From a virus, in IMG/VR virus record IMGVR_UViG_3300028820_000007, positions 1 to 41,527 of that record: 41,527 bases of DNA; one strand, 5' to 3'. Position numbers and translations under genes: made by a program. Below are positions 945 to 16,232 of the stretch, one piece after another. The notes beneath the pieces are model-generated. The model did no database searches, had not been told where the DNA came from, and worked only from the letters and a program-made list of their open reading frames with translations. Positions within the stretch are counted from its first letter, which is position 1; each line of letters starts with the position of its first letter.

Positions 945-2084
945 ATGCCAATACCTTTTCTAAACACTGCTAGTTTTACTGGAATTCAACTAACTTCCAA
1001 TCCTGTTGTAGGGCATGTACTTACTTGTATTGATACAAACGGTACCGCAGCATGGTCACCTGTATCTGCAAGTTTTACGAGTTTATCATTAGACTTAGAC
1101 GTAAATGGTAGAAAGATTATTTCATCTAATAATAGTAATATTGAGTTTGCTCCTCATGGTGTAGGTCAAATCTTATTGACAGGACAAACGGTTTTAGGTG
1201 GTAACTTAGATACTAACGGTTTTTTAATCACAAGTAATAATAACAGTAATATAAATATTGACCCTCATGGTACAGGCAAAATCTTACTGAGCGCATTAGT
1301 TGAATTAGGCGGAGATATAGATTTACGAACTCATAAAATAATTACAACAGGTTCAAACCCAATTACACTTGAGCCTGCTAACAACCAAAACATAGTATTA
1401 AATCCAAGTGGAACAGGAAAAGTAATCCTAGATTCAGATACTGTACTAGGGGGCAATTTAGACTTAGCTACAAATAAAATTGTTACTACAGATAATAATA
1501 ATGATATTGAATTAGATCCTCATGGTACAGGCAAAATAGTACTCAGTGCTAATGTAAAACTTGGCGGAAATTTAGATACAAATGGTTTTGATATAGTATC
1601 TAGTTCAAACCAAAACATAACACTCACACCTAATGGATCCGGTTTAATTAATCTAAACGGACCAATAATTTTAGGTGGTGATATTAATGTTGATGGTAAG
1701 AAGATACTTTCAACACAAAACGGAGATATCGAGATTGAACCACATGGGTCTGGCTTAATTAGGCTTAGTGGTAATGTAAGTATACAGAATGGCTTCAATA
1801 TATTCTTAGGTACGACAACGGGTACAAGAATTGGTACTTCAACTGATCAGCGCTTAGCATTTTACAATGCTACACCTATACCCCAACCAGCTAGTGCTGA
1901 GCAAAAAGCACTTGTAAATAATACTAATGGTGATACTAGTGCACTTGTATTAGAACAAGTAAACGAAACCTGGACTGGAGATGAATCAGGAAAAATAAAC
2001 AACAACTTCGCAAGAATAGCTGTTTTACTTAACAGACTTCGTCAAGACTTAGTCAGCTTAGGTTTAATTAAAGGTGACGCGTAG
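945..2084 (+). CDS. Repeat-built tail fibre protein
   Basis: This 379-residue protein is dominated by six tandem units of about 37 residues (about residues 50-278). Each has the pattern LGG-N/D-hydrophobic-D...KI(I/V)...N-I-x-hydrophobic-x-PHGTGKI-hydrophobic-L, alternating short beta strands with Gly/Asn turns. Such repeats are expected to form a long trimeric beta shaft. The tail of the protein has GTRIGTSTDQRLAFYNATP, resembling the GTKIG...KLGFFGATP segment seen near the ends of many phage fibres, and a short C-terminal helix. Its ATG follows the upstream fibre stop by one base, so the two are probably cotranscribed. Host-binding function is inferred; the repeats are read directly. Confidence 0.72.
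   Translation: MPIPFLNTASFTGIQLTSNPVVGHVLTCIDTNGTAAWSPVSASFTSLSLDLDVNGRKIISSNNSNIEFAPHGVGQILLTGQTVLGGNLDTNGFLITSNNNSNINIDPHGTGKILLSALVELGGDIDLRTHKIITTGSNPITLEPANNQNIVLNPSGTGKVILDSDTVLGGNLDLATNKIVTTDNNNDIELDPHGTGKIVLSANVKLGGNLDTNGFDIVSSSNQNITLTPNGSGLINLNGPIILGGDINVDGKKILSTQNGDIEIEPHGSGLIRLSGNVSIQNGFNIFLGTTTGTRIGTSTDQRLAFYNATPIPQPASAEQKALVNNTNGDTSALVLEQVNETWTGDESGKINNNFARIAVLLNRLRQDLVSLGLIKGDA
1092..1780 (+). repeat. Six tandem ~111-bp protein-coding repeats
   Basis: Six in-frame units of about 37 codons (one is about 47) lie inside the fibre gene. They share LGG, NLD or DID, and PHGTG or close variants. The DNA of the units has drifted while the residue pattern is kept, so this is an old, protein-selected repeat rather than a recent duplication. 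Confidence 0.75.
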
Positions 2085-2094
2085 AGATTGTTTT

Positions 2095-3945
2095 ATGAGT
2101 GATGAATTTGATATAGACTTACTACATCAAGCTCTATCTTTAAGTGAAAGCGAGTTTGATTTATTTCTTGAAGATTGGTATAACTCACTTTCGAAAAATC
2201 AAGAGTTATCTAAATCTGTTTACCTAAAAATGGGTAAGCATAGAGATCCAAATGGAGGATTAACTAAAGAAGGCATCGAATACTATAACAGGAAAACTGG
2301 TTCTAATCTTAAACCAGGAGTTAATTGGAAACCTAGAACAGCTGAGGACTTTAGAAGAAAAGGCAGTTTTCTAGTTAGGTTTTACACAAACCCTGTCGGT
2401 CCTTTGGTAGATGAAAAAGGACAGTTAACAAGGTTAGCTAAGGCAGCCCGGGCGTGGGGTGAGCATGCTCCCACTACACGAGCTGCAGCAGCTAAACTAG
2501 CAGCAAAGGGTAGAAGCCTACTAGAAAAAGCTAAACGAATGAAGGAGAGTAGAAAGAGAGTAAAGGCTAGTCTTAACTCTCTTTATGAACAGTACTCTAT
2601 TCCTTCTAAAAACCCCGATGATTATTTAGTAGTTGAGGATAGAGATAAAGTATCTACTTACCATTTACAAGTAAAAGAAAATGGTGTTCCCAATCCACGT
2701 TTAATGGGAGCTGCTTGGCGTGCTCTATATCATCCATCAGGACACCGAGGTAACCCATATAAGGGTCCACAAAAAGATAAAGCTAAACGTAAATTAAGGG
2801 CATTATATAAATCTCTAGGAAGAGAGATGCCTAGAGTACAGAGACATAGTCTTTTTAGTTCTGATGGTGTAGAGACTAAAGAAACTAATCAGGAGTTAAG
2901 CAAATCACTTAGATTAAGGAACTTTATTTATAACCTTGTAGAAAAACCTATAAAAAGGGGAATGGCAATACGAAATCCAGTTATACGAAAGTTAACTTCA
3001 AATGAACATGTCGATTCTAATTTAGATGGTTTTGATGCAAATACTTTAGATTATCGAGAGTCTTGCTCTGATCTTGATGTGGATTTAAATGAATTACTTC
3101 CAGAACTGGAGAATAAATTATCTCAACTAACAAACTCAGATAAATACTCAAACTGTTCTAAAGAAACGTTAAAGTTAGCTTTGAGTATATCGAAAGATAT
3201 TATTCTTAGTCTATTAGGATTGAATTTATCTGAGTCTACTTTTACTGAAGAATTAGATGAAGCTGAGTATTATCTATCAGACTCAGAGTTAGGTGAAAAC
3301 AGACTATCTGTACTTAATACAGAATCATATAGTTTAGAAGAAGTTGATCTTCCAGATGGATTTGTATTTTTAACTACTGTTGATAGGGACTTCATTCTAA
3401 GGAAATACACTTTCAATGATTACAGCCAGGCTATTTCGTTTGTAAACGACATTTACAATAAAGCAGAAGATGTTGGACACCATCCTATTGAATTGTTAAC
3501 TATATACAATTCTCCAGTAACAGAAGTCTATGTAAAGCTAAGTACAAATGATGAAAAAATTGGCGATGCCACTGTTGAGTTTAATACCGTTACTCTAAAA
3601 GATATTAGCTTAGCTAACTATTGTAATAGTATATACAACACTCACTATAAGAGTGGTCTATCTAATAGCGGAAATGAAGAATTATCAAATAACGATGATG
3701 TAGAACTTACTAACTACTACATAGATCAGTTAAACATGGCTTTAAATGATTTAAAGCTTAGCAAAGAAATAGATCTTGATGATTACGAAAGCTATTCTGA
3801 GAGTATATTTCTAGACAGAGACAAGCACCAACAAGCTAAGGCAGAAGCTAAACTCAAATTCAGAGTTTACCCCAGCGTATATGCAAATATGTGGATGGTT
3901 AAGCGTTACAAAGAACTCGGGGGTAGATTTGCAAAACGGGATTGA
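2095..3945 (+). CDS. Multidomain head-region protein with a pterin dehydratase-like domain
   Basis: I place the start at ATG 2095 (616 aa). A frame-compatible ATG at 2074 would overlap the previous gene and add seven unlikely residues. Domains in order: residues 46-100, GGLTKEGIEYYNRKTGSNL and RRKGSF, resembling small DUF6321-type domains of large DNA viruses; 173-245, a segment around HLQV, LMGAAWRAL, HRGNPYKGP and LRALYKSLG of a type I associate with phage head-maturation proteins; 420-518, a domain aligning with pterin-4a-carbinolamine dehydratase (AEDVGHHP, YN, LST, DISLA); 583-612, KFRVYPSVYANMWMVKRYK, another small domain seen in viral proteins. Linkers are acidic and rich in Leu-Ser. 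Position just upstream of the protease/scaffold and capsid genes suggests a head-assembly or internal capsid protein. Domain calls are from motif recall; enzymatic activity is uncertain because one active-site His is Asn. Confidence 0.7.
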   Translation: MSDEFDIDLLHQALSLSESEFDLFLEDWYNSLSKNQELSKSVYLKMGKHRDPNGGLTKEGIEYYNRKTGSNLKPGVNWKPRTAEDFRRKGSFLVRFYTNPVGPLVDEKGQLTRLAKAARAWGEHAPTTRAAAAKLAAKGRSLLEKAKRMKESRKRVKASLNSLYEQYSIPSKNPDDYLVVEDRDKVSTYHLQVKENGVPNPRLMGAAWRALYHPSGHRGNPYKGPQKDKAKRKLRALYKSLGREMPRVQRHSLFSSDGVETKETNQELSKSLRLRNFIYNLVEKPIKRGMAIRNPVIRKLTSNEHVDSNLDGFDANTLDYRESCSDLDVDLNELLPELENKLSQLTNSDKYSNCSKETLKLALSISKDIILSLLGLNLSESTFTEELDEAEYYLSDSELGENRLSVLNTESYSLEEVDLPDGFVFLTTVDRDFILRKYTFNDYSQAISFVNDIYNKAEDVGHHPIELLTIYNSPVTEVYVKLSTNDEKIGDATVEFNTVTLKDISLANYCNSIYNTHYKSGLSNSGNEELSNNDDVELTNYYIDQLNMALNDLKLSKEIDLDDYESYSESIFLDRDKHQQAKAEAKLKFRVYPSVYANMWMVKRYKELGGRFAKRD

Positions 3946-4011: not shown

Positions 4012-6399
4012 ATGGAAAAGTACTTCTATATTTCACCTGAATTATACGAGCAGCTTTTGTCTGCACGTCTGTTAGATATATTAGACGAATCCAATTTAGA
4101 TGAACAATTACTAAGTGTATCACCAGAAGTCTGTAAGCAGCCTGGCGGACCAAAAGGCTTTTCTGCAATAGCTTCATGCAAAGCACAAGGTCTAATTCCT
4201 AGAGCAGATGGAAGAATTTATAAGTCAAAAGAGAAGCTATCAAATGACTGTAGTGAATTAGAGCTTGTAGTAAAACAACTATCCGAGAAGTATAGTTTAC
4301 ACCCAGGTGGATTGAAGAAGTGGTTTGAGGAGCAGACTCCTCCAGAAGCGATCAGAAAAAGAATAGAGGAAAAGACTGGTGAAAGTTTTCCTGGAGGTTG
4401 GGTACGTGTATCTGCAGAAACTGGTGAGATAATAGGTCCTTGCGGTAGAAAAAGTAGTAAAGATAATAGTTCCTATCCAAAGTGTATGAGTTACGAAAAG
4501 TGGAAAAGCTTATCAAAGCAAGAAAGAATTAACGCTGCAAGAAGAAAACAAGCAGAAGGTGTACCTGCATATGGTAAAGGCAATAAACCTAAGTTAGTTA
4601 AAACAGAGCTTTCAAACACAGTTAACTACGCAGATAGAACTATAACAACTCCAGTCAATAAACCTAAGGAATGGGATGGTCTAGCTTTATATGTTGAATA
4701 CTCACCTGGAGAACAAAGGATAGATTCAACAGGTGTAACTACCTTTTTAGATTTTTATGGTTACTTTGAAGACTCAAACAACTTAGATTCAGAAGAACTA
4801 GATTTTTATTATTACTCAGGTAATCCAGTTTCTAATAAAGTCTTTATTGTAGAGAAACAAACAGAAACAGGTGGATTAGATGAGCTCAAGGTTATGCTAG
4901 GCTACCCTTCACAATTGGATGCAATGAAGGCTTACCTAGCTCATAATCCACCTGAATCTTTTAAATCTATTTACGAAATATCTTCTTCGGCTTTGCATTC
5001 TTTTATAAAAGCTTCTAAGGAATTTAAGTTATCTAATAGTCTTCTATTAGATAAAGTAATTGAGACTAATAGTTCCGACATAGATATATATCCTATTAAG
5101 TTTGTAGCTTATAGGTCCGAAAGTTTTAGTAACACGCCACGACCAATGCTCAAAATTCCTGTTGCAAAGCTTGGTTCTTGGGTACATACAGTCTATAAAA
5201 AAGTTGAGTTCACTCAACGTGATTTTGATGACATGATACGGAATTTTAAAAATGATGTTCTCGGATTTCCACCTTATTGTAGGTATGGACACTCAAAGTA
5301 TCCAAATAGTGTAGATGCAGAACCTTCTGTAGGTGAAGTTAAAGATTTAGTACAGGAGGGTGACATACTCTATTCCATAGTTGAACCAAATAATGACGAG
5401 ACAGTAGAGGAGATAAGATCTAAGAAATATAGGTTTAGTAGTCCTGAAGTAACTAGAAATTTTATTGATAAAAATACAGGTAAAAATCTAGGTACAGTTT
5501 TAACTGCAATTTCACTTACAAATGCACCTTTTCTCCCTAACCTTCCTGACAATCAAGTATTAAGCATCAACTGCCCAGATTCAAAAGATTTTTTTATATT
5601 AAATCTTAGTACATGCGAACATATCTCTGGTGTTGAAGTAGCTAAATGCACTTCACCTGAGTCTATAAGTATGTCATCTAGTAGATTGTATATGGAAAAT
5701 AAAATGAATGTCACACTTAGTGAAGGAGCAGTTAGCGAAGCTTCCCAGGAAGAATTGGCCATGAATGCTCCTATGAAAGAGCTCATGAAATCTCCTGCAA
5801 AAGAAGTTATGAAGTCTCAACCTGAAATGGAAGAGATGGATGCAGAACAGAAGAAGCAGGAGATGTCCAAAAAAGAAAAAATGTCTAGTAAAGATACTAA
5901 GGAGAAAATGAGTCAGTCTGTTGATACTCCAGTATCTGTATCTACAGAGCAGCTGCTGAGTCAGATTCAAGCTCTTTCTAAACAAATGGAAGAGCTATCG
6001 AATGCTTATCAAGCAAGACTTAAGGAAGCTGATGAACGACTAAACCAAGCTTTATCTATTAATGCACAGCTTGAAGCTCGTCTAAGAGAGACTGAAGCAA
6101 GAACTGAGTATTTAACTTCTCAAGCTTATGCAGCTGAACTTAGCAATCGTAAAGCTGAGTATATTCGTAAAGGTATTCCGCCTTTTATTGTTAATAAAGT
6201 ATTTGACATAATCCAGTCTAATCCCTCTCAACAAATTAGATTGTCTAACGGTGAGCAAGTTACTTTGCAGTCCCAGCTAGAGGAACTTCTTTCCCAGTTT
6301 CCTCCTGAGTTTAGAATAAGCTTCCAGCAGTTCTCCAGCACTGCTACACCTGCTCAAAAAGCAGAAAATCCCTATAGAAAAGCTGGAATTATCAAGTAA
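4012..6399 (+). CDS. Prohead protease (Mu gpI-like) fused to pyrophosphatase-like domain and scaffold
   Basis: This 795-aa polypeptide combines several parts. Residues 38-75 and 96-195 hold short Cys-containing segments (CKQPGGPKGFSAIASC; GGWVRVSAETGEIIGPCGR; YPKC) like DUF5872-type modules. Residues 207-335 match phage inorganic-pyrophosphatase-like domains: VEYSPGEQR, YGYF, DSEELD, FIVEKQ, DELKVMLG. Residues 378-515 match the Mu gpI-type protease: FTQRDFDDMIRNFK, GH at 426-427, GEVKDL, YRFSSPE at 473-479, then LTNAPFLPNLP. Residues 570-635 are Met/Lys/Glu rich, and 640-715 form a predicted coiled coil typical of a scaffold. The capsid gene follows directly, fitting a protease-scaffold role in prohead assembly and maturation. 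Extra N-terminal domains make it much longer than Mu gpI (361 aa). The pyrophosphatase metal motif is altered (DxD to DxE), so activity is doubtful. Confidence 0.83.
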   Translation: MEKYFYISPELYEQLLSARLLDILDESNLDEQLLSVSPEVCKQPGGPKGFSAIASCKAQGLIPRADGRIYKSKEKLSNDCSELELVVKQLSEKYSLHPGGLKKWFEEQTPPEAIRKRIEEKTGESFPGGWVRVSAETGEIIGPCGRKSSKDNSSYPKCMSYEKWKSLSKQERINAARRKQAEGVPAYGKGNKPKLVKTELSNTVNYADRTITTPVNKPKEWDGLALYVEYSPGEQRIDSTGVTTFLDFYGYFEDSNNLDSEELDFYYYSGNPVSNKVFIVEKQTETGGLDELKVMLGYPSQLDAMKAYLAHNPPESFKSIYEISSSALHSFIKASKEFKLSNSLLLDKVIETNSSDIDIYPIKFVAYRSESFSNTPRPMLKIPVAKLGSWVHTVYKKVEFTQRDFDDMIRNFKNDVLGFPPYCRYGHSKYPNSVDAEPSVGEVKDLVQEGDILYSIVEPNNDETVEEIRSKKYRFSSPEVTRNFIDKNTGKNLGTVLTAISLTNAPFLPNLPDNQVLSINCPDSKDFFILNLSTCEHISGVEVAKCTSPESISMSSSRLYMENKMNVTLSEGAVSEASQEELAMNAPMKELMKSPAKEVMKSQPEMEEMDAEQKKQEMSKKEKMSSKDTKEKMSQSVDTPVSVSTEQLLSQIQALSKQMEELSNAYQARLKEADERLNQALSINAQLEARLRETEARTEYLTSQAYAAELSNRKAEYIRKGIPPFIVNKVFDIIQSNPSQQIRLSNGEQVTLQSQLEELLSQFPPEFRISFQQFSSTATPAQKAENPYRKAGIIK

Positions 6400-6411
6400 G
6401 GTAAACCATCT

Positions 6412-6416
6412 AGGAG
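6412..6416 (+). promoter_or_regulatory. Strong ribosome-binding site of capsid gene
   Basis: AGGAG lies 11 bases before the ATG at 6428. It is one of the clearest Shine-Dalgarno sequences in the window, where most genes have weak ones. This fits high translation of the capsid protein. Confidence 0.65.
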
Positions 6417-6427
6417 ACATAAAATAA

Positions 6428-7636
6428 ATGCTTGCCCCTACTGCTTTAAACACCCCATATCAAGATGGTGTACCTATTCTCGGCTTAGGTTATACAGAGC
6501 TTCTAGAGGTTGCCGAGTATTTCGCGCAACTAGAAGATCAAAATAATGGGGATCCACTTGCCGAGTTCTTTCCTGATGAAAATATAACAGCTTTTAAAGT
6601 AAAAATCCAGCGTCGTAAAACTGGTGTAGGTATTACTCCGCTGGTTAACTTCGGACAACCTGACGTGTTCGTTCCGGATGATAGCTATGACGAGAAAGAA
6701 GTCACTCCCTTCCCTATTCGGGAGTCTGCACTAATTTCTCAGGTGACTATCAACCATCTACGCAAGTTTGGCACTTACAACGAAACCGGAGCAGGTTTAG
6801 AAGAAGTTGCTCGAGTAATGCAGCGCTTAGTAGAAAGGCGTAACAACTTTATTAGAGTTGTTCGTGCTAAGCAAATGCTGGGTGGGATCTCTTATGTAGA
6901 TCCCCGTACTAAAGTTGGCATTTCTCTATCGGCTAACTTCCACCCTGCTAACCTAGTTACATTAACTACTAACGATTTCTTTACGAACAAAGCTTCTGAT
7001 CCAATTCAAATCTTGCTTAGACATAAGTATGAATTACATACGCTAGGTAAAGCTGAACCTACGCATATCATTATGTCTAAGCATATGCGTTTCATTCTAG
7101 AGAACCACCCAGCTGTAAGAGCCAACATGGGCTTTTACTTACCTGCTCCACTAACCGCTGGTACCAACGCTCCTCAAGGTTTTGTGGGTGCTAGCCTAGC
7201 AGCCTATCAAGGCTATGCAACTATGGAGGGTGGTAAGCTTACTTCCATTGCTGGTCTAAAAGTAGTAGTTGTAGATACTCTGTATGAAGACCCAGCTAAT
7301 GGATTTAAAGTAACAGAGGTTTGGCCTCCTCACAAAGTAGCAATTGTTGCCAAGCAACGTGGTTCAGCCATTGTTGGGCGTACAACCCACACTCTTGGTG
7401 AGAACCCTGATATGAAGCCTGGTATGTACGTTCGTGTCTCTACACGCGATTTAGAGCCTCCTCAGGCACCTGGTGGTAGATTAATGCAGTTAGGCGACAA
7501 CCTAATTCCGCACTTTATCTACCCTGATTGGGTTCGATTAATTGATGTGTCTACTGAGGCTGAAGTCAAGAAAGTTGTAAACACCGGACTAGTAACTCTA
7601 ACGGTACCTAGCTTCGATCACACTCAAGTCCAGTAG
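6428..7636 (+). CDS. Major capsid protein (gpE-like HK97 fold)
   Basis: The 402-aa product has the features of the major capsid protein E family. An N-terminal segment leads to FFPDENITAFKVKIQRRKTG; a conserved P-loop-like stretch follows (VNFGQPDVFVPDD, then EVTPFPIRESALIS); a long helix (EEVARVMQRLVERRNNFIRVVRAKQML) forms the spine; and a C-terminal beta region contains VTEVWPPHKVAIVAKQRGSA. The gene sits directly after the protease/scaffold gene, the classic capsid order. Codons here include more C/G-ending forms (AAC, TTC, CGT) than in neighbours, as expected of a highly expressed gene. It is followed by a GC-rich hairpin. No obvious N-terminal cleavage site was recognised. Family call rests on pattern recall and gene order. 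Confidence 0.85.
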   Translation: MLAPTALNTPYQDGVPILGLGYTELLEVAEYFAQLEDQNNGDPLAEFFPDENITAFKVKIQRRKTGVGITPLVNFGQPDVFVPDDSYDEKEVTPFPIRESALISQVTINHLRKFGTYNETGAGLEEVARVMQRLVERRNNFIRVVRAKQMLGGISYVDPRTKVGISLSANFHPANLVTLTTNDFFTNKASDPIQILLRHKYELHTLGKAEPTHIIMSKHMRFILENHPAVRANMGFYLPAPLTAGTNAPQGFVGASLAAYQGYATMEGGKLTSIAGLKVVVVDTLYEDPANGFKVTEVWPPHKVAIVAKQRGSAIVGRTTHTLGENPDMKPGMYVRVSTRDLEPPQAPGGRLMQLGDNLIPHFIYPDWVRLIDVSTEAEVKKVVNTGLVTLTVPSFDHTQVQ

Positions 7637-7649
7637 TTAGCTGAATAAG

Positions 7650-7674
7650 ACAGGGGGTATTCAATACCCCCTGT
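7650..7674 (+). terminator. GC-rich hairpin after capsid gene
   Basis: ACAGGGGGTAT (7650-7660) and ATACCCCCTGT (7664-7674) form a perfect 11-bp stem with a TCA loop. No U-tract follows (AAACCC), so it may act as an mRNA 3'-end stabiliser or processing stop rather than a classical intrinsic terminator. Confidence 0.6.
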
Positions 7675-7705
7675 AAACCCTCAAACAATTGGAGAAATAT
7701 AAACT

Positions 7706-8605
7706 ATGGCTTTAGATAAACTGTTACAACTAATTCCAGGAGCTAGCGTAGCTGCCGGTGACACCATTAGCGAACGTACCAGAAAAGGTATTGTTGAAGG
7801 TGTCAGACTAATGTATTTACCTGACATAGATGCAACTACAAACAATAATCAACCAGGCTTTGTTGTAACGCCTGGTAAATTGTTAATCGGAGAGTATGTT
7901 TACGACTTTCCTGGATTAACTCCTAGTGATCCAGATTTAGTTGCTGCTGCAGCTGGAGGATTGTCTTTAACAACTACCGCTGCAGTTACAGCTGTACCTG
8001 ATGCCGTAACTGGTGGAGCTATTTCCACTACTGCGCCAGTTGATGTTTGGGCAGTAACACCAGCTCCTATGTATAAGGTAGATCCATTTTCAGTTGTTCA
8101 GCTAACTTCAACCGGATCAGTTCGTGATAATCCTCTTGTAGTCGATATTGTTGTAAATCCTGGACATAAAGTAAACAAGCTGCGTATTGAATACGTTAAA
8201 CACAATGATACTCCGGCAAACCAAGTGATTAGTGTTAATGGAAAGAGCTTTTCTGCTTCTGGTGATACAGTTACTGCTGTAGATGCCACTTTAGGTCTAA
8301 ATCTAACGATTGTACTAACTGCTAGTAGAGATGCAACTTATGAAGGTGATGTAACCGAAGCAGTAGTTAGAGATGCTGTTATCCACGGTCTGAATCAGTC
8401 TTTACCTGCTGGTGTATCTCTATCTAAAAAGATAGCATTTGGCTTATCTAATACTCCTCGTGGTGATAGCCTCACTACAAAGGGTATGGTAATTGCTGGA
8501 CAGCGTGTAGAATTCCGAGATAAGTCGATCTATCTAGGTCGTATAACTGGACCTAATACAGTGGATACAACCCAAGCAGAGGTCTTTCAACCTTATCCTC
8601 GTTAG
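7706..8605 (+). CDS. Probable capsid-associated (decoration-type) protein
   Basis: The 299-aa product matches no family I can name. It is rich in Thr, Val, Ala and Gly and has beta-strand-like stretches: LLIGEYVYDFPG near residues 54-65, and a central region (about 130-240) that reads like a beta sandwich (NPLVVDIVVNPG, KLRIEYVKH, LNLTIVLTA). A GGAGAA ribosome-binding site precedes the ATG by ten bases. It lies directly after the capsid gene and is bounded by strong hairpins on both sides, the pattern seen here for abundant virion proteins. That context suggests a head decoration or minor capsid protein, which is inference from position only. Confidence 0.5.
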   Translation: MALDKLLQLIPGASVAAGDTISERTRKGIVEGVRLMYLPDIDATTNNNQPGFVVTPGKLLIGEYVYDFPGLTPSDPDLVAAAAGGLSLTTTAAVTAVPDAVTGGAISTTAPVDVWAVTPAPMYKVDPFSVVQLTSTGSVRDNPLVVDIVVNPGHKVNKLRIEYVKHNDTPANQVISVNGKSFSASGDTVTAVDATLGLNLTIVLTASRDATYEGDVTEAVVRDAVIHGLNQSLPAGVSLSKKIAFGLSNTPRGDSLTTKGMVIAGQRVEFRDKSIYLGRITGPNTVDTTQAEVFQPYPR

Positions 8606-8614
8606 TCTTTAGTA

Positions 8615-8661
8615 TTTACAGTGTGGTAGTATTGAATCAGTCGATCCTACCACACTGTAAA
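8615..8661 (+). terminator. 15-bp perfect stem-loop between head genes
   Basis: TTTACAGTGTGGTAG (8615-8629) pairs perfectly with CTACCACACTGTAAA (8647-8661) around a 17-base loop. The right arm ends in A and no U-tract follows, so it is terminator-like but could be an RNA-processing or stability element. It occupies the region just before the ATG at 8680 and rules out the GTG at 8623 as a likely start. Confidence 0.65.
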
Positions 8662-8679
8662 AAGGATTTTAGGGTTTAT

Positions 8680-9273
8680 ATGGCATACTTTAAAGTTCTA
8701 AGTATTATTAAACAATATCCTGAATTAGTTGTTAGTAACATCTATGAACTAGATGACTATGAAGCTGATGTGCTTAAACAAGGTGCAAGCGGACATATAC
8801 TCGAAAACATAATGTTTGTTTCAGATGAATTTAAAGCCAGTTCATGTGGTTTAGTTTCATTCGGAATAAAGAGACCAGAACCTACAGTTTTAATAAACAT
8901 TACCCAGGAACAAGCTGAAGATACTAATAACCAATCTGATGTTGACAATAAACAAACTGAGGTTGTACAAGATAATAATACCTATGATGAAGAAGTGAAT
9001 AGAAAAAAAGAAACAAACGTAGTTGCAGAGGTAATTAATCCCTTTTATTATGCCAATGAAGAAACTGAACCTAAATCAATTGATGTTAGGTATTCAGAAA
9101 GAGAAAAAGAGTTAAACTCACTTTTAGCTAGGGATATAAAAGACCTGTGTGACAGAGTGAACATTACTTATAAAAATAAAGCACAAGCAGTTCAAGCAAT
9201 TCTTAATTTAGAGTTTCCTGACTATGTTAAAAATCAACCTTCATTAGAAGAAGTTATAAATGACGAGTTGTAG
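8680..9273 (+). CDS. Head-region protein with C-terminal HeH/SAP-like motif
   Basis: I start the gene at ATG 8680 (197 aa), because a GTG at 8623 falls inside a perfect stem-loop. AAAGGA precedes the ATG by 13 bases. The first 75 residues look like a compact alpha/beta domain. Residues 75-145 are acidic, Asn/Gln-rich and probably disordered. Residues 148-181 (LARDIKDLCDRVNITY-KNKAQAVQAIL) form the helix-extended loop-helix pattern of HeH/SAP-type modules, which often bind nucleic acid and occur in small phage head or head-tail proteins. Location between capsid and neck genes suggests a head-completion or packaging-related role, but this is inferred. Confidence 0.5.
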   Translation: MAYFKVLSIIKQYPELVVSNIYELDDYEADVLKQGASGHILENIMFVSDEFKASSCGLVSFGIKRPEPTVLINITQEQAEDTNNQSDVDNKQTEVVQDNNTYDEEVNRKKETNVVAEVINPFYYANEETEPKSIDVRYSEREKELNSLLARDIKDLCDRVNITYKNKAQAVQAILNLEFPDYVKNQPSLEEVINDEL

Positions 9274-9296
9274 AAGTTTATTTATAAAAGGTTAGC

Positions 9297-11381
9297 ATGC
9301 CTTGGAATAGTAATGATAATGTATTTGGGTCGTCGTTAATCGGTTACGGCGACTCTTTTTTTAAACGGTGTGTACGTATGGTTCGTACACATAACGTACT
9401 ATTAGATCCTAATACAGTTACGGATGAGGAAATTGAGTTTACTCTAAAAAACTTAGCTTATCCTAGAATTTGGTTTTACCTAAAAACCGCAAAGGTAAAA
9501 AATACAGGTTTACCTGTATTCTATGATCCTCAGTCTAGTCCCAGCACAGACTTTGGTGATGAACAAGTATTTAGACAGGCTTTAATTGACTCTGCAAATG
9601 AGTCTTTTGCAAGTTCTATAGCTTGGATAGCGAGTGCATATGCAGCTTCTATATTGACCTCTAAAACGTTTCATATTGTAGACAATTATGCTGATTTAGC
9701 TAAGCATTTAGAGAAAATAGCAACAGCTACATTAGAACAACTTAAACAGGAATTATGTTGTTCAGCAAGTGAGGCTCCTCTAAAAGCTGCTACTAAATCA
9801 CCTTTTGACGATATATCCTTTTATTTTGCTCCAGCTTATGATCCTCTAACAGACACCTTGTATGAGAGGATAGAGCTTAACTGGTATGAAAGAGCAATTA
9901 TGGAGGTGATAGTAGGATCTACTCCAGAGCCTGCCTATTACGAAGTGCCTAACTACACTAAACCGCTGCAGCTAGCAATGCAGGTTCAAAATGCAATTAA
10001 CAACAGGTCGAAGCGAATTTTAACTGTGTTAAATGCAGGTGGGAGAACACCAGCTAAGATCGAAATCGTACCTAAAGCAGATTTACCACCCGATAGTAAT
10101 CAGATCTATCAAGTAGAGGTTGCATTAGAACGATTAACAGCTGTAGCTAGAGATAAGGAAATTGTTCAGAGTGCTGAGTCTATAAATTTAGTATTTCGCA
10201 GATACTTATATTTTGTAGGTTCTACACCAAGTCAAAGTGACCTAGATAGAGCTTTTGGTGTAGGTAATAGTGTTTTTACAGTAGGTCCAGGTGGTTCTGT
10301 TGCTCCTCCTACAAGTCCAGCAACAACAGGTGGTGGAATATATTCCACATTACCTACACCAATTCCTGGAGCAATATTTTGGCAGATAACTGCTGTTCCA
10401 AATGCAGAGTTTATTGGGAATTACACATTAGGTACAGTAGATGTAACTACAACTCTACCTCCTACTTTAAGGAATAGGTTGTATAAAGGTTATAAGTGGC
10501 GTTGTGTTAATAGCGTTGATCCTGATTTTCCTGGAAATAATGGTGTTTGGGTACTTGAAGAAGAGTATCCCAAATTAGGCTTTCATGAAATTAAATATGG
10601 AACTAAAGCTGATTATAATGAGTTAACACGTACAGGTCCTCATGGAATCTTTTTACAACTTGGTTCTACAAAAGAATCTAAGGATGTTTCCGGATTAACC
10701 CCCCTAGAAGATCTAAGTAATATAAACACCTTTTATTTCCGTGTAGATGATGAAATTGCTTGGGGTTCTTATTTTCATACTTTAACTGAAGAAGATGTTA
10801 AAGAATCAGAAGTAGTTGGAAATACAATTCCGTTTGGTATTTTTAAATACAGAGTTACTGGACCTAATACCACAACTTTACCTGCTAATACAACAGGTTA
10901 TTCTACTGAAGACTCAGATAATTTACCAATAGTCTCTTCTATATCATTTAGAGTACCTGCAGGTGCTAGTGCTGCAAAAATAGCTCAAGCTTTTAACCAT
11001 AGTCTATTTAACTACTACAAAACAAATAACGTTATTGGTGCAATCATAAAGAATGTTAATGCCGTAACATGTACAGTAAATAGAGCTGAACCTTTAACTA
11101 TAGCAGTAGTTATAGACTTTACTGAACTACCTGCACCAATATCTATTGCAACCGGTAACTACTCTGAACCTTTGAGCTCATTTACAAATGAACCTAAGTC
11201 TCTTTACTTAATTAGTCCTTTAGTAAAACCAACATCAATTCAAGCAGATGGATCAAATCCTAATGGTTTTATTACAGATGGTAAAGGAAGTGCATTGTTA
11301 GTAAGGCAGAAGTTTTCTGATCAACATCAGTACGTTAGAGACAAACTAAACAGTATATACGCAGGTGGGTATAGACCATAA
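9297..11381 (+). CDS. Unrecognised neck/tail-region virion protein
   Basis: The 694-aa product is unfamiliar to me. Its N-terminal 250 residues are mainly helical and include an Ala-rich helix (SSIAWIASAYAASILTS). From about 330 there is a Pro/Gly/Thr-rich linker, then beta-rich segments with paired WRCVNSVDPDFPGN and WVLEEEYPKLGF. The C-terminus ends with a basic helix (RQKFSDQHQYVRDKLN). AAAAGG five bases before the ATG is a good ribosome-binding site. Its stop overlaps the next ATG (TAATG), so the two products are probably made in step. Standing between head genes and tail sheath, it may be a neck or head-tail joining protein; no motif proves this. Confidence 0.45.
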   Translation: MPWNSNDNVFGSSLIGYGDSFFKRCVRMVRTHNVLLDPNTVTDEEIEFTLKNLAYPRIWFYLKTAKVKNTGLPVFYDPQSSPSTDFGDEQVFRQALIDSANESFASSIAWIASAYAASILTSKTFHIVDNYADLAKHLEKIATATLEQLKQELCCSASEAPLKAATKSPFDDISFYFAPAYDPLTDTLYERIELNWYERAIMEVIVGSTPEPAYYEVPNYTKPLQLAMQVQNAINNRSKRILTVLNAGGRTPAKIEIVPKADLPPDSNQIYQVEVALERLTAVARDKEIVQSAESINLVFRRYLYFVGSTPSQSDLDRAFGVGNSVFTVGPGGSVAPPTSPATTGGGIYSTLPTPIPGAIFWQITAVPNAEFIGNYTLGTVDVTTTLPPTLRNRLYKGYKWRCVNSVDPDFPGNNGVWVLEEEYPKLGFHEIKYGTKADYNELTRTGPHGIFLQLGSTKESKDVSGLTPLEDLSNINTFYFRVDDEIAWGSYFHTLTEEDVKESEVVGNTIPFGIFKYRVTGPNTTTLPANTTGYSTEDSDNLPIVSSISFRVPAGASAAKIAQAFNHSLFNYYKTNNVIGAIIKNVNAVTCTVNRAEPLTIAVVIDFTELPAPISIATGNYSEPLSSFTNEPKSLYLISPLVKPTSIQADGSNPNGFITDGKGSALLVRQKFSDQHQYVRDKLNSIYAGGYRP

Positions 11382-12332: not shown

Positions 12333-15300
12333 GTGCCTATCGACGCTCTTTATCCCTCAATCTTTTTTAATGAAGATAACGTTGGGTTACGCCCACCGGT
12401 TAGTAGAGTTCAAAATAGAATAGGGATTGTTGGAGCTTTCTCCAGAGGTCCACAGAATGAGGGTATTGTTATTTCTAACAGAGAACAGCTTAGAAAAATT
12501 TTTGAAGAGGACTTATACCCAGGTTCTCTAGCTGTTCAAGCTGCAATGGACCAAGGCGCCAGAGACTTTGTTATAGTTAGAGCCCTATCTAAAGGTAGAG
12601 CGGGTAGAGGTGAGATATTAGTTGTAGGTACTGCTACTGTAAATCATATCGTTACTGTCTTAATAAGGGATGATAAAGGCCAAGTTGCTTTTGAGGCCAC
12701 TTCTATCGCTATTAATAACGGTGATAGTGAATTTAAAATACGAGATAAAATTGCTACAGCAATTGGAACTGACCCTAATCAACGAGTTCTACCTGAAGTA
12801 ATAGGTAATAAACTATATGTAACTGCTCAAGAGTTTGGCTATCACACAGATAACTGGACTGTACATGTTGTTCCTCTTAAACAGTTCGGTGCAGGTATTA
12901 TTGATGTTGATAGACTTAAGCAAGTCGAGTCAGCTCGGTTGACTAATCAATCGACAGCTTATGTATTCTATACCGGTTTGTACTACGACTATGAACCATC
13001 GAGTAATGCTGATGAATCTCTACCTACTGTAATTAGACCCAACGATAAGCAAATACGTGCAACCTTTAACTCAGTATCACCTAACCTACCTGTAACAATC
13101 AATGCAACTACTGATGTAATTACCTTAAATGGTCATAATTTACAGGTCGGTGACAGAATAAAATTTGGGTTTTCTACTCCACCTCGAGTGGGTAACAGCG
13201 ACATCTCATCTACAGATATTTACTACGTTACAAACGTTACTCAAGACACATTTCAAGTTGCAGCTACTCGGGCTCATGCTTTAGCTGGAACACCAGTTGT
13301 AGATTTTAGTTCAGCAGGTGCTAACGTAACAATTAATCATATAGAAGGTGCTTATCGACACAACCTAGCAGAACTAAGATCTTTCCCACTGATTGGTGTT
13401 GAGGCGCCTTTCCTTGTTCAATTAGGAGATGGTAATGGAGTTTTAAATACATATAAGTGGGATCCTGATAATTTATCAGCAGATGATGGCGATGATGTAA
13501 CAACTGCTAATTATATTAAACCCGAGGTTCTTACTATTGTTAACCCTGGTAGGTGGGTAAAAGATAACAATGCCTCAAACGGTCGTTGGATTATATCTAC
13601 TCCTCCCTCTGTAGGAACTACCTATGCGCCTACAACACCGGCTAGATTTACGGGTGGACAGGATCCTCCAACTGTTGCTGAAAGAATTTTATATCACGCA
13701 GATAACACTCCAATCTTAAAGGTACTAGCTAAGTCTCCTGGTGTTTGGGGTAACGATGTAGCTATTACAGTTACTCCTGCACAGCAGACCTTTGGTATTA
13801 TTCGTAAAGTTAACATGCGGATTGTTGATTACCGCAGAACTAACCGAGTTGCCAATGGTTTCTTTGAAGAGTTCTTACCTTCACTGGATCTACAAGATGT
13901 ATTCTACACAGCTTCGGGTAATACGTTACTTTCAGCGTCAAACCGTTCAGACTTAGTTAACCTACAGTATCTAGGTAAGACTGCTGATGATTTAACTAAG
14001 GTACCTACACATACAAAGGCTGTAGGAACTCTATCTTTCGCTTCTGATGCATCTGAAGATGGGACGCTCTTCATAGATATTAGAGATCGCAGATCTGGTT
14101 TTCCAATTGTCAATACTGTTAAGTATACCTACAGACAGTTTGACACTGCTCAAAGTATAGCTAAAGGTGTAGAACGCTTAATTAATAACTCCGGTACTAA
14201 GGCAGCTGTTACACTTAAATTCCTAGATGGTACTAGTATTTCCCAAAATAACACCTTAACTGTATTAGGTGTATCTACAGCACGTGCACCAGCTGGGGGT
14301 TATGACCGGTTTACACTAGTACAAGCTTTAAAAACAGCCTTTGTAGGCGATTTAAGGTATGATACAGTTGTTCTTCCTACCGGTGATGGTATACGCTTTG
14401 TACAAAAGAATGCAGGCGTAGATGAAACTCCTGTAAACATTACTAAGTCTCAAGCTACAGACATTGTAAATGTTTATATCTCAAATAACGCTAAAATTCT
14501 AAATTTGCATCCTGACGTACACTTAGTCAGTTCTATTGTTACGACACGAATTAAACTAACTGATGGAACAGTATTATCTCAACCAACCTTTGCTTTAGGA
14601 TCGCTAGCTTCACCTGTAACTGATATTGAAGTAGTTACAAATGCAATTGTAGCCTCTTGGGCAGGTAATAATGAGGTATTAGTCTCTAAAATTGATGCAA
14701 ATACACTTGAATTTAAACTAATAGACTCATCTGAGTTAGATATTGAAGAAGTAACCTTCACAGCTGCAGGTTTCCTTAAAGACGGTACTAATCAGTTCGG
14801 TGCTGCTTGGTCTAGCATTTGGCCAGGGACTTTTACTCTGAACATCAGTGGCCCTGTAGTTGTTGCAAGTGGTACTGTTGTAAACGTTGCTGGTACTGCG
14901 GTTACAATATCAAGCAATATAACAACACCTTCTGCTCTTGCTATACAACTAGCAGCAGGATTGGGATCAAGTAGGGTAATAAACGGTGTAACGTATAACG
15001 TTAGTGTTTCTGGCACTACTATTAAATTTACACCTGCTTCTGGTGCTTTTACACCTACTACACCTCTAGTAATAAATATAAACAACAGTCTAGTAGCTAA
15101 ACTTAACTTCTTAGGCTATCCAAATGCAACAACTACGCTAGGTGGAGGAGTACCAAATCTACCTGTCGAAGCTCGGTTAAATGGACTAGAGCTTATTCTA
15201 GAGGCTAAAGACGTAGGTGTACAAGGTAATTTAATTGAGTATAGAGCACGTACAAATAATCTTCTATCTATTACAGTACTTCCAGGTGATTATGAAAGGC

Positions 15301-16232
15301 TAGAAGGAGGTCAAGACCTAGCTACTGAGGCTTATCTTCGATATGGTAGTTTAGGACCTACGCTCAATGAAAAAGATTTCTTAGATGGATTAGAAGTACT
15401 AAGAAATCTTCAAGCAAACCTTATTGGGGTAGCTGCTACACCAGATGAATTTGGAAGACCTATTGAGACCTTAGATAGCATTCACTTTGCTCTAATACAG
15501 CAAGCTGAAACTGCTTCAGAAGAAGATGGTTTGAGGTTTGCTGTTCTAGCTGCACCTAAGGGCTTAACTGCCCAACAAGCTAGAAACTACATGGCGACTC
15601 AGCCTAATTCTAGATTTGGAAAGATGGTTGCTGGTTGGGTAACCTATGCAGGTCAACCTATTTTAGGTCAATACGCAGTGTCTCCTACCGGTTTTGCACT
15701 AGGTCACATAGCAGTGACTCCATTCCAAGTATCTACTGCTGCAAGAGCTTCATCTCCTCAAATTAGAAATGTGATTTCTACTGACGTTTCTGTTGGACAC
15801 GCAGCTAGAAACGAATATACACAAAATAGATTAGATATTATCTACCGAGAGGAAGGCAGTGGAATGGTACACTTCTTAAACGGAAGAACACTATCTACTG
15901 ACCCTGCTTGGTATTGGGATACAATTAGACGTGTTTATAACGTAATAAGGGAAGATCTATTCTTTAGCCTCCAGTGGGCTAAGTCTGAGCCATTGACACA
16001 GCAAACTGTACGCCAGATTAAAGATGCAGTTGATAACTATCTAGAGATTAGGAAGTCACAGGGTTTGATTCTTGAATATAGTAAGACAGAAATTAGTATC
16101 TCTAAAAACCCTGTAAGTGCCCTAATTAGTGGTAACCTAACGATAGATGCGTACTTTACTCCGATCTATCCTGCTGATAGACTAATTGTTAATCTGATAA
16201 GACAACCAGAGCGTGTAACAATAGCACTCTAA
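12333..16232 (+). CDS. Contractile tail sheath protein (oversized)
   Basis: The start is GTG; the resulting N-terminus (MPIDALYPSIFFNED, then RIGIVGAFSRGP) is the standard sheath opening, followed by SLAVQAAMDQGARDFVIVRAL. The C-terminal 300 residues are typical too: ETLDSIHFALIQQAE, RFAVLAAPKG, SRFGKMVAGW, a long helix near AWYWDTIRRVYNVIRED, and ISISKNPVSALISGNLTIDAYF. At 1299 aa it is about twice T4 gp18 (659 aa). Extra material lies in the middle. Residues about 252-336 (ITLNGHNLQVGDRIKF, IYYVTNVTQDTFQVA) match the HGL-xxGD virion domain found in many phage structural proteins. GGQD occurs twice (about 440 and 992), each near a GVWGN or GVQGN element, suggesting duplication of a sheath subdomain. 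The protein would form the contractile tube around the tail. Confidence 0.92.
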   Translation: MPIDALYPSIFFNEDNVGLRPPVSRVQNRIGIVGAFSRGPQNEGIVISNREQLRKIFEEDLYPGSLAVQAAMDQGARDFVIVRALSKGRAGRGEILVVGTATVNHIVTVLIRDDKGQVAFEATSIAINNGDSEFKIRDKIATAIGTDPNQRVLPEVIGNKLYVTAQEFGYHTDNWTVHVVPLKQFGAGIIDVDRLKQVESARLTNQSTAYVFYTGLYYDYEPSSNADESLPTVIRPNDKQIRATFNSVSPNLPVTINATTDVITLNGHNLQVGDRIKFGFSTPPRVGNSDISSTDIYYVTNVTQDTFQVAATRAHALAGTPVVDFSSAGANVTINHIEGAYRHNLAELRSFPLIGVEAPFLVQLGDGNGVLNTYKWDPDNLSADDGDDVTTANYIKPEVLTIVNPGRWVKDNNASNGRWIISTPPSVGTTYAPTTPARFTGGQDPPTVAERILYHADNTPILKVLAKSPGVWGNDVAITVTPAQQTFGIIRKVNMRIVDYRRTNRVANGFFEEFLPSLDLQDVFYTASGNTLLSASNRSDLVNLQYLGKTADDLTKVPTHTKAVGTLSFASDASEDGTLFIDIRDRRSGFPIVNTVKYTYRQFDTAQSIAKGVERLINNSGTKAAVTLKFLDGTSISQNNTLTVLGVSTARAPAGGYDRFTLVQALKTAFVGDLRYDTVVLPTGDGIRFVQKNAGVDETPVNITKSQATDIVNVYISNNAKILNLHPDVHLVSSIVTTRIKLTDGTVLSQPTFALGSLASPVTDIEVVTNAIVASWAGNNEVLVSKIDANTLEFKLIDSSELDIEEVTFTAAGFLKDGTNQFGAAWSSIWPGTFTLNISGPVVVASGTVVNVAGTAVTISSNITTPSALAIQLAAGLGSSRVINGVTYNVSVSGTTIKFTPASGAFTPTTPLVININNSLVAKLNFLGYPNATTTLGGGVPNLPVEARLNGLELILEAKDVGVQGNLIEYRARTNNLLSITVLPGDYERLEGGQDLATEAYLRYGSLGPTLNEKDFLDGLEVLRNLQANLIGVAATPDEFGRPIETLDSIHFALIQQAETASEEDGLRFAVLAAPKGLTAQQARNYMATQPNSRFGKMVAGWVTYAGQPILGQYAVSPTGFALGHIAVTPFQVSTAARASSPQIRNVISTDVSVGHAARNEYTQNRLDIIYREEGSGMVHFLNGRTLSTDPAWYWDTIRRVYNVIREDLFFSLQWAKSEPLTQQTVRQIKDAVDNYLEIRKSQGLILEYSKTEISISKNPVSALISGNLTIDAYFTPIYPADRLIVNLIRQPERVTIAL

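Follow-up and report, generated by a model that had tools for sequence, protein, structure and literature searches.

What is an inorganic-pyrophosphatase (InPase) domain doing on the protease and scaffold chain of a phage head, and does it still work as an enzyme? The question is raised by a 41.5-kb virus record (41,527 nucleotides, the whole of the DNA analysed, hereafter the window) that contains head and contractile-tail genes. Directly upstream of its major capsid gene (6428–7636, plus strand; PF03864, E = 2.9e-14; phrog_30785, E = 4.4e-34) lies an open reading frame of 795 codons in which an InPase domain precedes a capsid protease.

Domain organization of the 795-residue protein

The open reading frame (4012–6399, plus strand) encodes an N-terminal module, the InPase domain, a linker, the protease and a scaffold-like coiled-coil tail, all of the features below being on the plus strand. 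A small Gly/Cys/Lys-rich module (residues 130–197, GGWVRV...GPCGR...YPKCM, 4399–4602) matches families of unknown function (phrog_23735, E = 1.5e-6; phrog_727, E = 8.6e-6). The InPase domain (PF18823, residues 213–333, 4648–5010) follows, and a linker at about residues 343–373 (5038–5130) joins it to the capsid (prohead) protease (residues 375–520, 5134–5571), behind which the scaffold-like C-terminal region with its coiled coil extends over 5602–6396. Within that region, an in-frame ATG at 5761 stands behind AGGAAG (AGGAGG in the second contig described below) at good spacing (5740–5763); judged from these signals it is a possible nested scaffold start, to be likened to the nested start of Mu genes I and Z.

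No relative of the whole protein was found in the phage genome collection. The frame is, however, intact and 90% identical in a second viral contig (L001), and this copy, together with the ratios of non-synonymous to synonymous change (dN/dS) between the two, rules out an assembly artefact or a chance reading frame. The ratio is 0.068 for the InPase domain, 0.050 for the protease, 0.242 for the linker (taken as residues 334–374) and 0.167 for the tail; the InPase domain has been conserved by purifying selection since the window and L001 split.

Identity and predicted fold of the InPase domain

An earlier note, made from the letters of the window, had placed an InPase-type domain N-terminal to a prohead protease/scaffold, at 4630–5016 (residues 207–335), and this assignment stands. 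The motifs on which it drew are in frame (VEYSPGEQR, residues 228–236; YGY, 249–251; DSEELD, 259–264; FIVEKQ, 278–283; DELKVMLG, 290–297), and residues 220–332 match PF18823 in Pfam with 61.5 bits against a cut-off of 26.8 (E = 1e-16). The only solved chain with a convincing sequence match to the domain is the portal protein gp19 of Pa193 (9b41), whose C-terminal InPase region is recovered at E = 8.5e-5 with the domain alone and at E = 1.6e-36 with the family profile. These two matches show that the similarity is not due to chance. In the Pa193 portal, residues 94–528 were modelled, whereas residues 529–765, which hold the InPase, gave no discernible density (PMC11042391); in that entry the InPase part is therefore without a solved structure.

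An AlphaFold model of residues 203–548, computed from an alignment of 79 rows, reaches a pLDDT of about 90 or above in most of the InPase and the protease and drops to 32–41 at residues 343–373 or thereabouts, predicting two confident domains on a disordered linker. All of the motifs listed above fall within one predicted fold, apart from the protease, and not in separate ones. Residues 10–139 of the model superpose on type I pyrophosphatases with Z of 8–8.8 and an r.m.s.d. of 3.0–4.0 over 110–120 residues (VIA-align), and a Foldseek comparison gives E = 6e-4, so that the domain is predicted to have the type I pyrophosphatase fold. A relation to PF00719, against which the note had also proposed a check, is thus borne out in the fold and not in the sequence, which gave nothing against that family at E ≤ 1. 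The domain has about 125 residues and E. coli pyrophosphatase about 175, a difference in length compatible with the absence of the β-hairpin insert of cellular type I pyrophosphatases, which PF18823 InPases are described as lacking (Iyer et al. 2017, PMC5512222). The PF18823 domains of polyvalent proteins treated in that study share YGY, D-x-[DE]-x-x-D and DExK with the present one and likewise occur in virion-associated multidomain proteins, whereas the domain here is carried on a capsid maturation protease/scaffold, is highly diverged and has Lys282 in place of Gln.

The metal site

Alignment with E. coli pyrophosphatase by HHalign, using a sequence checked against PDB entries, pairs Y249, D259, E261 and D264 with Y55, D65, D67 and D70 of the cellular enzyme and does not fix the DExK loop. 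The metal motif DSEELD (4786–4803) corresponds to D-G-D-x-x-D, and DELK (residues 290–293, 4879–4890) to the DExK of the family. From Glu for Asp in the first and Leu for His in the second, a possibly altered metal site had been deduced, and from this a degenerate or re-tuned pyrophosphatase. The residues named do not support that view. Among 83 distinct viral InPase domains, found with DExK as search pattern, the column of D259 holds Asp in 82 and that of D264 in all 83; at E261 there are 50 Asp, 32 Glu and one Met, and the column of the supposed His contains His in 57 domains, Asp in nine, Ser and Leu in four each, and other residues. D290, E291 and K293 are invariant in this set, partly by construction because DExK was the search pattern. 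With Asp and Glu alternating and the His column variable, both substitutions are ordinary variation. D-x-E-x-x-D is also present in Tenacibaculum phage Larrie (DGEEID), in the viral contig L011 (DGEELD) and in a Nodularia phage (DKEALD). A link between Glu261 and fusion to a protease was considered and dropped: one protease-fused domain (L054) has Asp, and the later search pattern favoured Glu. The active-site variant D117E of yeast pyrophosphatase was reportedly made and studied by Tuominen in 1998, and we take D117 to be the equivalent of D67 in the E. coli enzyme.

Every acidic residue of the family (D259, E261, D264, D290 and E291) is kept, as are Tyr249, Lys293 and Tyr308; to judge by these residues, the active site seems to be intact. 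The function of the domain could still be doubted for other reasons. Lys282 (4855–4857) is unique to this lineage, the position being Gln in 132 of 134 InPase domains, and Y230, S231 and N257 are further departures from the family consensus. In the domain tree, which has too few columns to place the domain, the stem leading to the window and L001 measures 2.57 changes per column, compared with a median end branch of 0.22. Given this very long stem and Lys282, the function may have shifted.

The protease and its lineage

Residues 379–535 match phrog_32941 (E = 9.7e-26), and the protease domain also matches phrog_3894 (head maturation protease, E = 0.0018). One member of phrog_32941 is gp085 of Microcystis phage Ma-LMM01, the gene of which lies just 5' of that for the major head protein. 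Residues 173–318 of the model superpose on herpes assemblin (1vzv; Z = 11.4, r.m.s.d. 2.7, 113 residues) and on T4 gp21 (5jbl; Z = 8.1). By its relatives and predicted fold, the region of residues 375–520 is a capsid protease of the herpes-assemblin/T4 gp21 type; in Pfam the protein remains below the cut-off for the Mu-like protease family PF10123 (12.7 bits against 25.2). His427 (nucleotide 5290, in YGH) and Ser477 (nucleotide 5440, in SS[PG]E) are conserved in the alignment of protease relatives and are probably the catalytic residues.

Within this protease lineage, among the relatives found, the InPase domain occurs in the window and L001 only. It is absent from Ma-LMM01 gp085 and its kin, from a Microcoleus phage and from six further viral contigs (L092–L094, L099, L105 and L106), so the fusion is particular to the lineage of the window and L001, whether the domain was gained there or lost in the others. 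Ma-LMM01 gp085 resembles the present protein in being a related protease/scaffold encoded directly 5' of the major capsid gene; unlike it, gp085 has 450 residues and neither the InPase domain nor the N-terminal module.

InPase domains on other head proteins

Fusion of an InPase to a head protease recurs outside this lineage. In Larrie (L003), an InPase (E = 1.9e-43) is followed by CLP_protease (E = 2.2e-17). As in the window, the InPase comes before the head protease, a long tail lies behind and the gene adjoins a structural gene; the protease, by contrast, is of the ClpP family, with a fold other than the assemblin type, and the N-terminal module is missing. No Larrie relatives were found among the viral contigs. 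A 1,275-residue chain in L011 (IMGVR 3300027985; 5797–9621) runs from an InPase through several small modules, DUF6582 among them, to a Mu-like protease/scaffold (Mu-like_Pro, PF10123, E = 1e-30, above the cut-off). It too combines an InPase with DELK, a small module of unknown function and a protease of the same broad class, but the InPase stands first and a long insert of other modules intervenes, and the two InPases are only about 26% identical.

A different order is seen in five contigs (L019, L026, L054, L129 and L135), in which the InPase lies behind a protease of the type of Bacillus phage G gp19 and the Gordonia 'capsid maturation protease'. The N-terminal halves in L019 and L026 match these proteins and phrog_18299 (E = 3e-4), and the fusion in L026 is encoded a few genes downstream of a terminase-like gene. 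The protease label for L019 and L026 comes from sequence, as the AlphaFold pLDDT of the N-terminal half is 41. A further candidate for this type, L071, was excluded, since alignment of its N-terminus is poor and the region resembles MuF.

Many phage records, in addition, have the InPase on a minor head or portal protein. One InPase query returned 471 records, and most among the matches listed are annotated as minor head protein; the InPase-bearing protein of KPP22 is annotated 'virion protein'. Portals of Pbunavirus-type phages (Pa193 gp19, BcepF1) resemble the present case in bearing the InPase on a head protein able to face the capsid lumen, and differ in having it at the portal C-terminus, not at the N-terminus of a protease, and, in Pa193, with DGDEVD and DEHK. 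In L084 (5908–7812), one phage protein joins an InPase to a RelA/SpoT domain.

The occurrence of InPases in polyvalent proteins and on portals, with packaging and injection proposed, was described by Iyer et al. 2017 (PMC5512222), where the term 'prohead protease' occurs only in the title of a reference. That the phage family hydrolyses pyrophosphate is likewise a prediction of that study. No paper on InPase–protease fusions was found in the open-access literature; the PF18823 family is known, and its fusion to a head protease seems to be undescribed.

Neighbouring genes

The upstream neighbour (2074–3945, plus strand) combines DUF6321, a domain like pterin-4a-carbinolamine dehydratase (PCD; 3382–3630) and a weak, sub-threshold match to DUF5872 (Pfam: PF19846, E = 5.4e-24; PF01329, E = 2.5e-9; PF19197, E = 0.015). 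The dehydratase-like domain has the motif AEDVGHHPIELLTIY and is matched by solved PCDs at E = 1e-4; a search with it of 50,697 phage records gave no convincing match, with one at E = 0.8. In Synechococcus phage S-CBP4, DUF6321 stands as a gene of its own, flanked by those for capsid assembly and the major capsid protein, a position that ties the module to head genes.

The tail sheath of the window (12333–16232, 1,299 residues) is matched by sheath families over its C-terminal 450 or so residues only; the remaining N-terminal part is therefore a very large extension or insertion. The protein encoded at 272–943 resembles, in its C-terminal 70 residues, the C-termini of virion structural proteins, head decoration proteins included (phrog_2647, phrog_8309), which suggests a mobile C-terminal module.

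Proposed role of the InPase domain

The reading that we prefer, with a probability of roughly 45%, is that the added InPase is borne into the capsid lumen on the protease/scaffold chain, cut free, and injected, to hydrolyse PPi or a pyrophosphate-containing nucleotide. Belonging to the scaffold core, the chain would assemble inside the prohead and so carry the InPase into the lumen. The protease would most likely cut the chain within the flexible linker, whose disorder in the model and rapid divergence are what one would expect if it were a cleavable tether; no motif for cleavage was recognized. The freed InPase may then stay with the packaged DNA and enter the host at infection. It would probably hydrolyse PPi, or some related phosphoanhydride, in a metal-dependent reaction that in the new host could aid early phage transcription and replication, or remove a host signal. 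A precedent is SPN3US, a phage that packages and ejects many head proteins and in which processing of such proteins by the prohead protease is documented (PMC10052503).

Whether the domain is an enzyme at all bears directly on this proposal. It may instead have become a folded OB-type binding or spacing module in the scaffold core, as the very long stem branch, Lys282 with the three other departures, and the protease relatives that do without an InPase would allow. Such a module would hardly be expected to keep the complete set of family acidic residues with Tyr249, Lys293 and Tyr308, or a dN/dS as low as that of the InPase and close to the protease's, and the Asp-to-Glu change is common in PF18823; we regard loss of catalysis as unlikely, if a serious contender. 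If the domain is active, it could work in the producing cell, as part of a soluble chain or in the prohead, clearing PPi from late replication and transcription. We consider this improbable. Host cells already have a soluble pyrophosphatase, and InPases sit on portals as well as on head proteases and in polyvalent proteins, which points to packaging, although the chain, as a head protein, is expected to be made late, and PPi clearing was proposed for the family by Iyer et al. (PMC5512222). Lastly, the InPase might be packaged and yet act on a nucleotide-type defence or alarmone molecule rather than on PPi. Nucleotide-like substrates were suggested in the same study from NUDIX and TmrB neighbourhoods, and the RelA/SpoT fusion would fit them; the fold and acidic site are nevertheless those of PPi hydrolases, and we hold this substrate to be quite improbable.

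The cargo proposal, to return to it, is made attractive by the occurrence of two enzyme-type domains in adjacent proteins of the head cluster. Its extension, that the head is loaded with two enzymes, the InPase and the pterin-dehydratase-like domain, on adjacent proteins, with the protease freeing cargo for the next host, is speculative and on balance doubtful.

Implications

For annotation, the survey corrects a likely error, in that Asp-to-Glu in the metal motif is no mark of a dead InPase. For phage heads, enzymes hung on portals and injected giant proteins are already known. Both the C-termini of portals and the protease/scaffold chains point into the capsid, and a domain moved onto either would hence sit in the lumen; from the fusions to head proteases and to portals we infer a recurrent route by which the InPase is loaded there. 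The presence of the same enzyme domain on three or four types of head protease suggests that the protease/scaffold may serve as a general cargo dock with built-in release.
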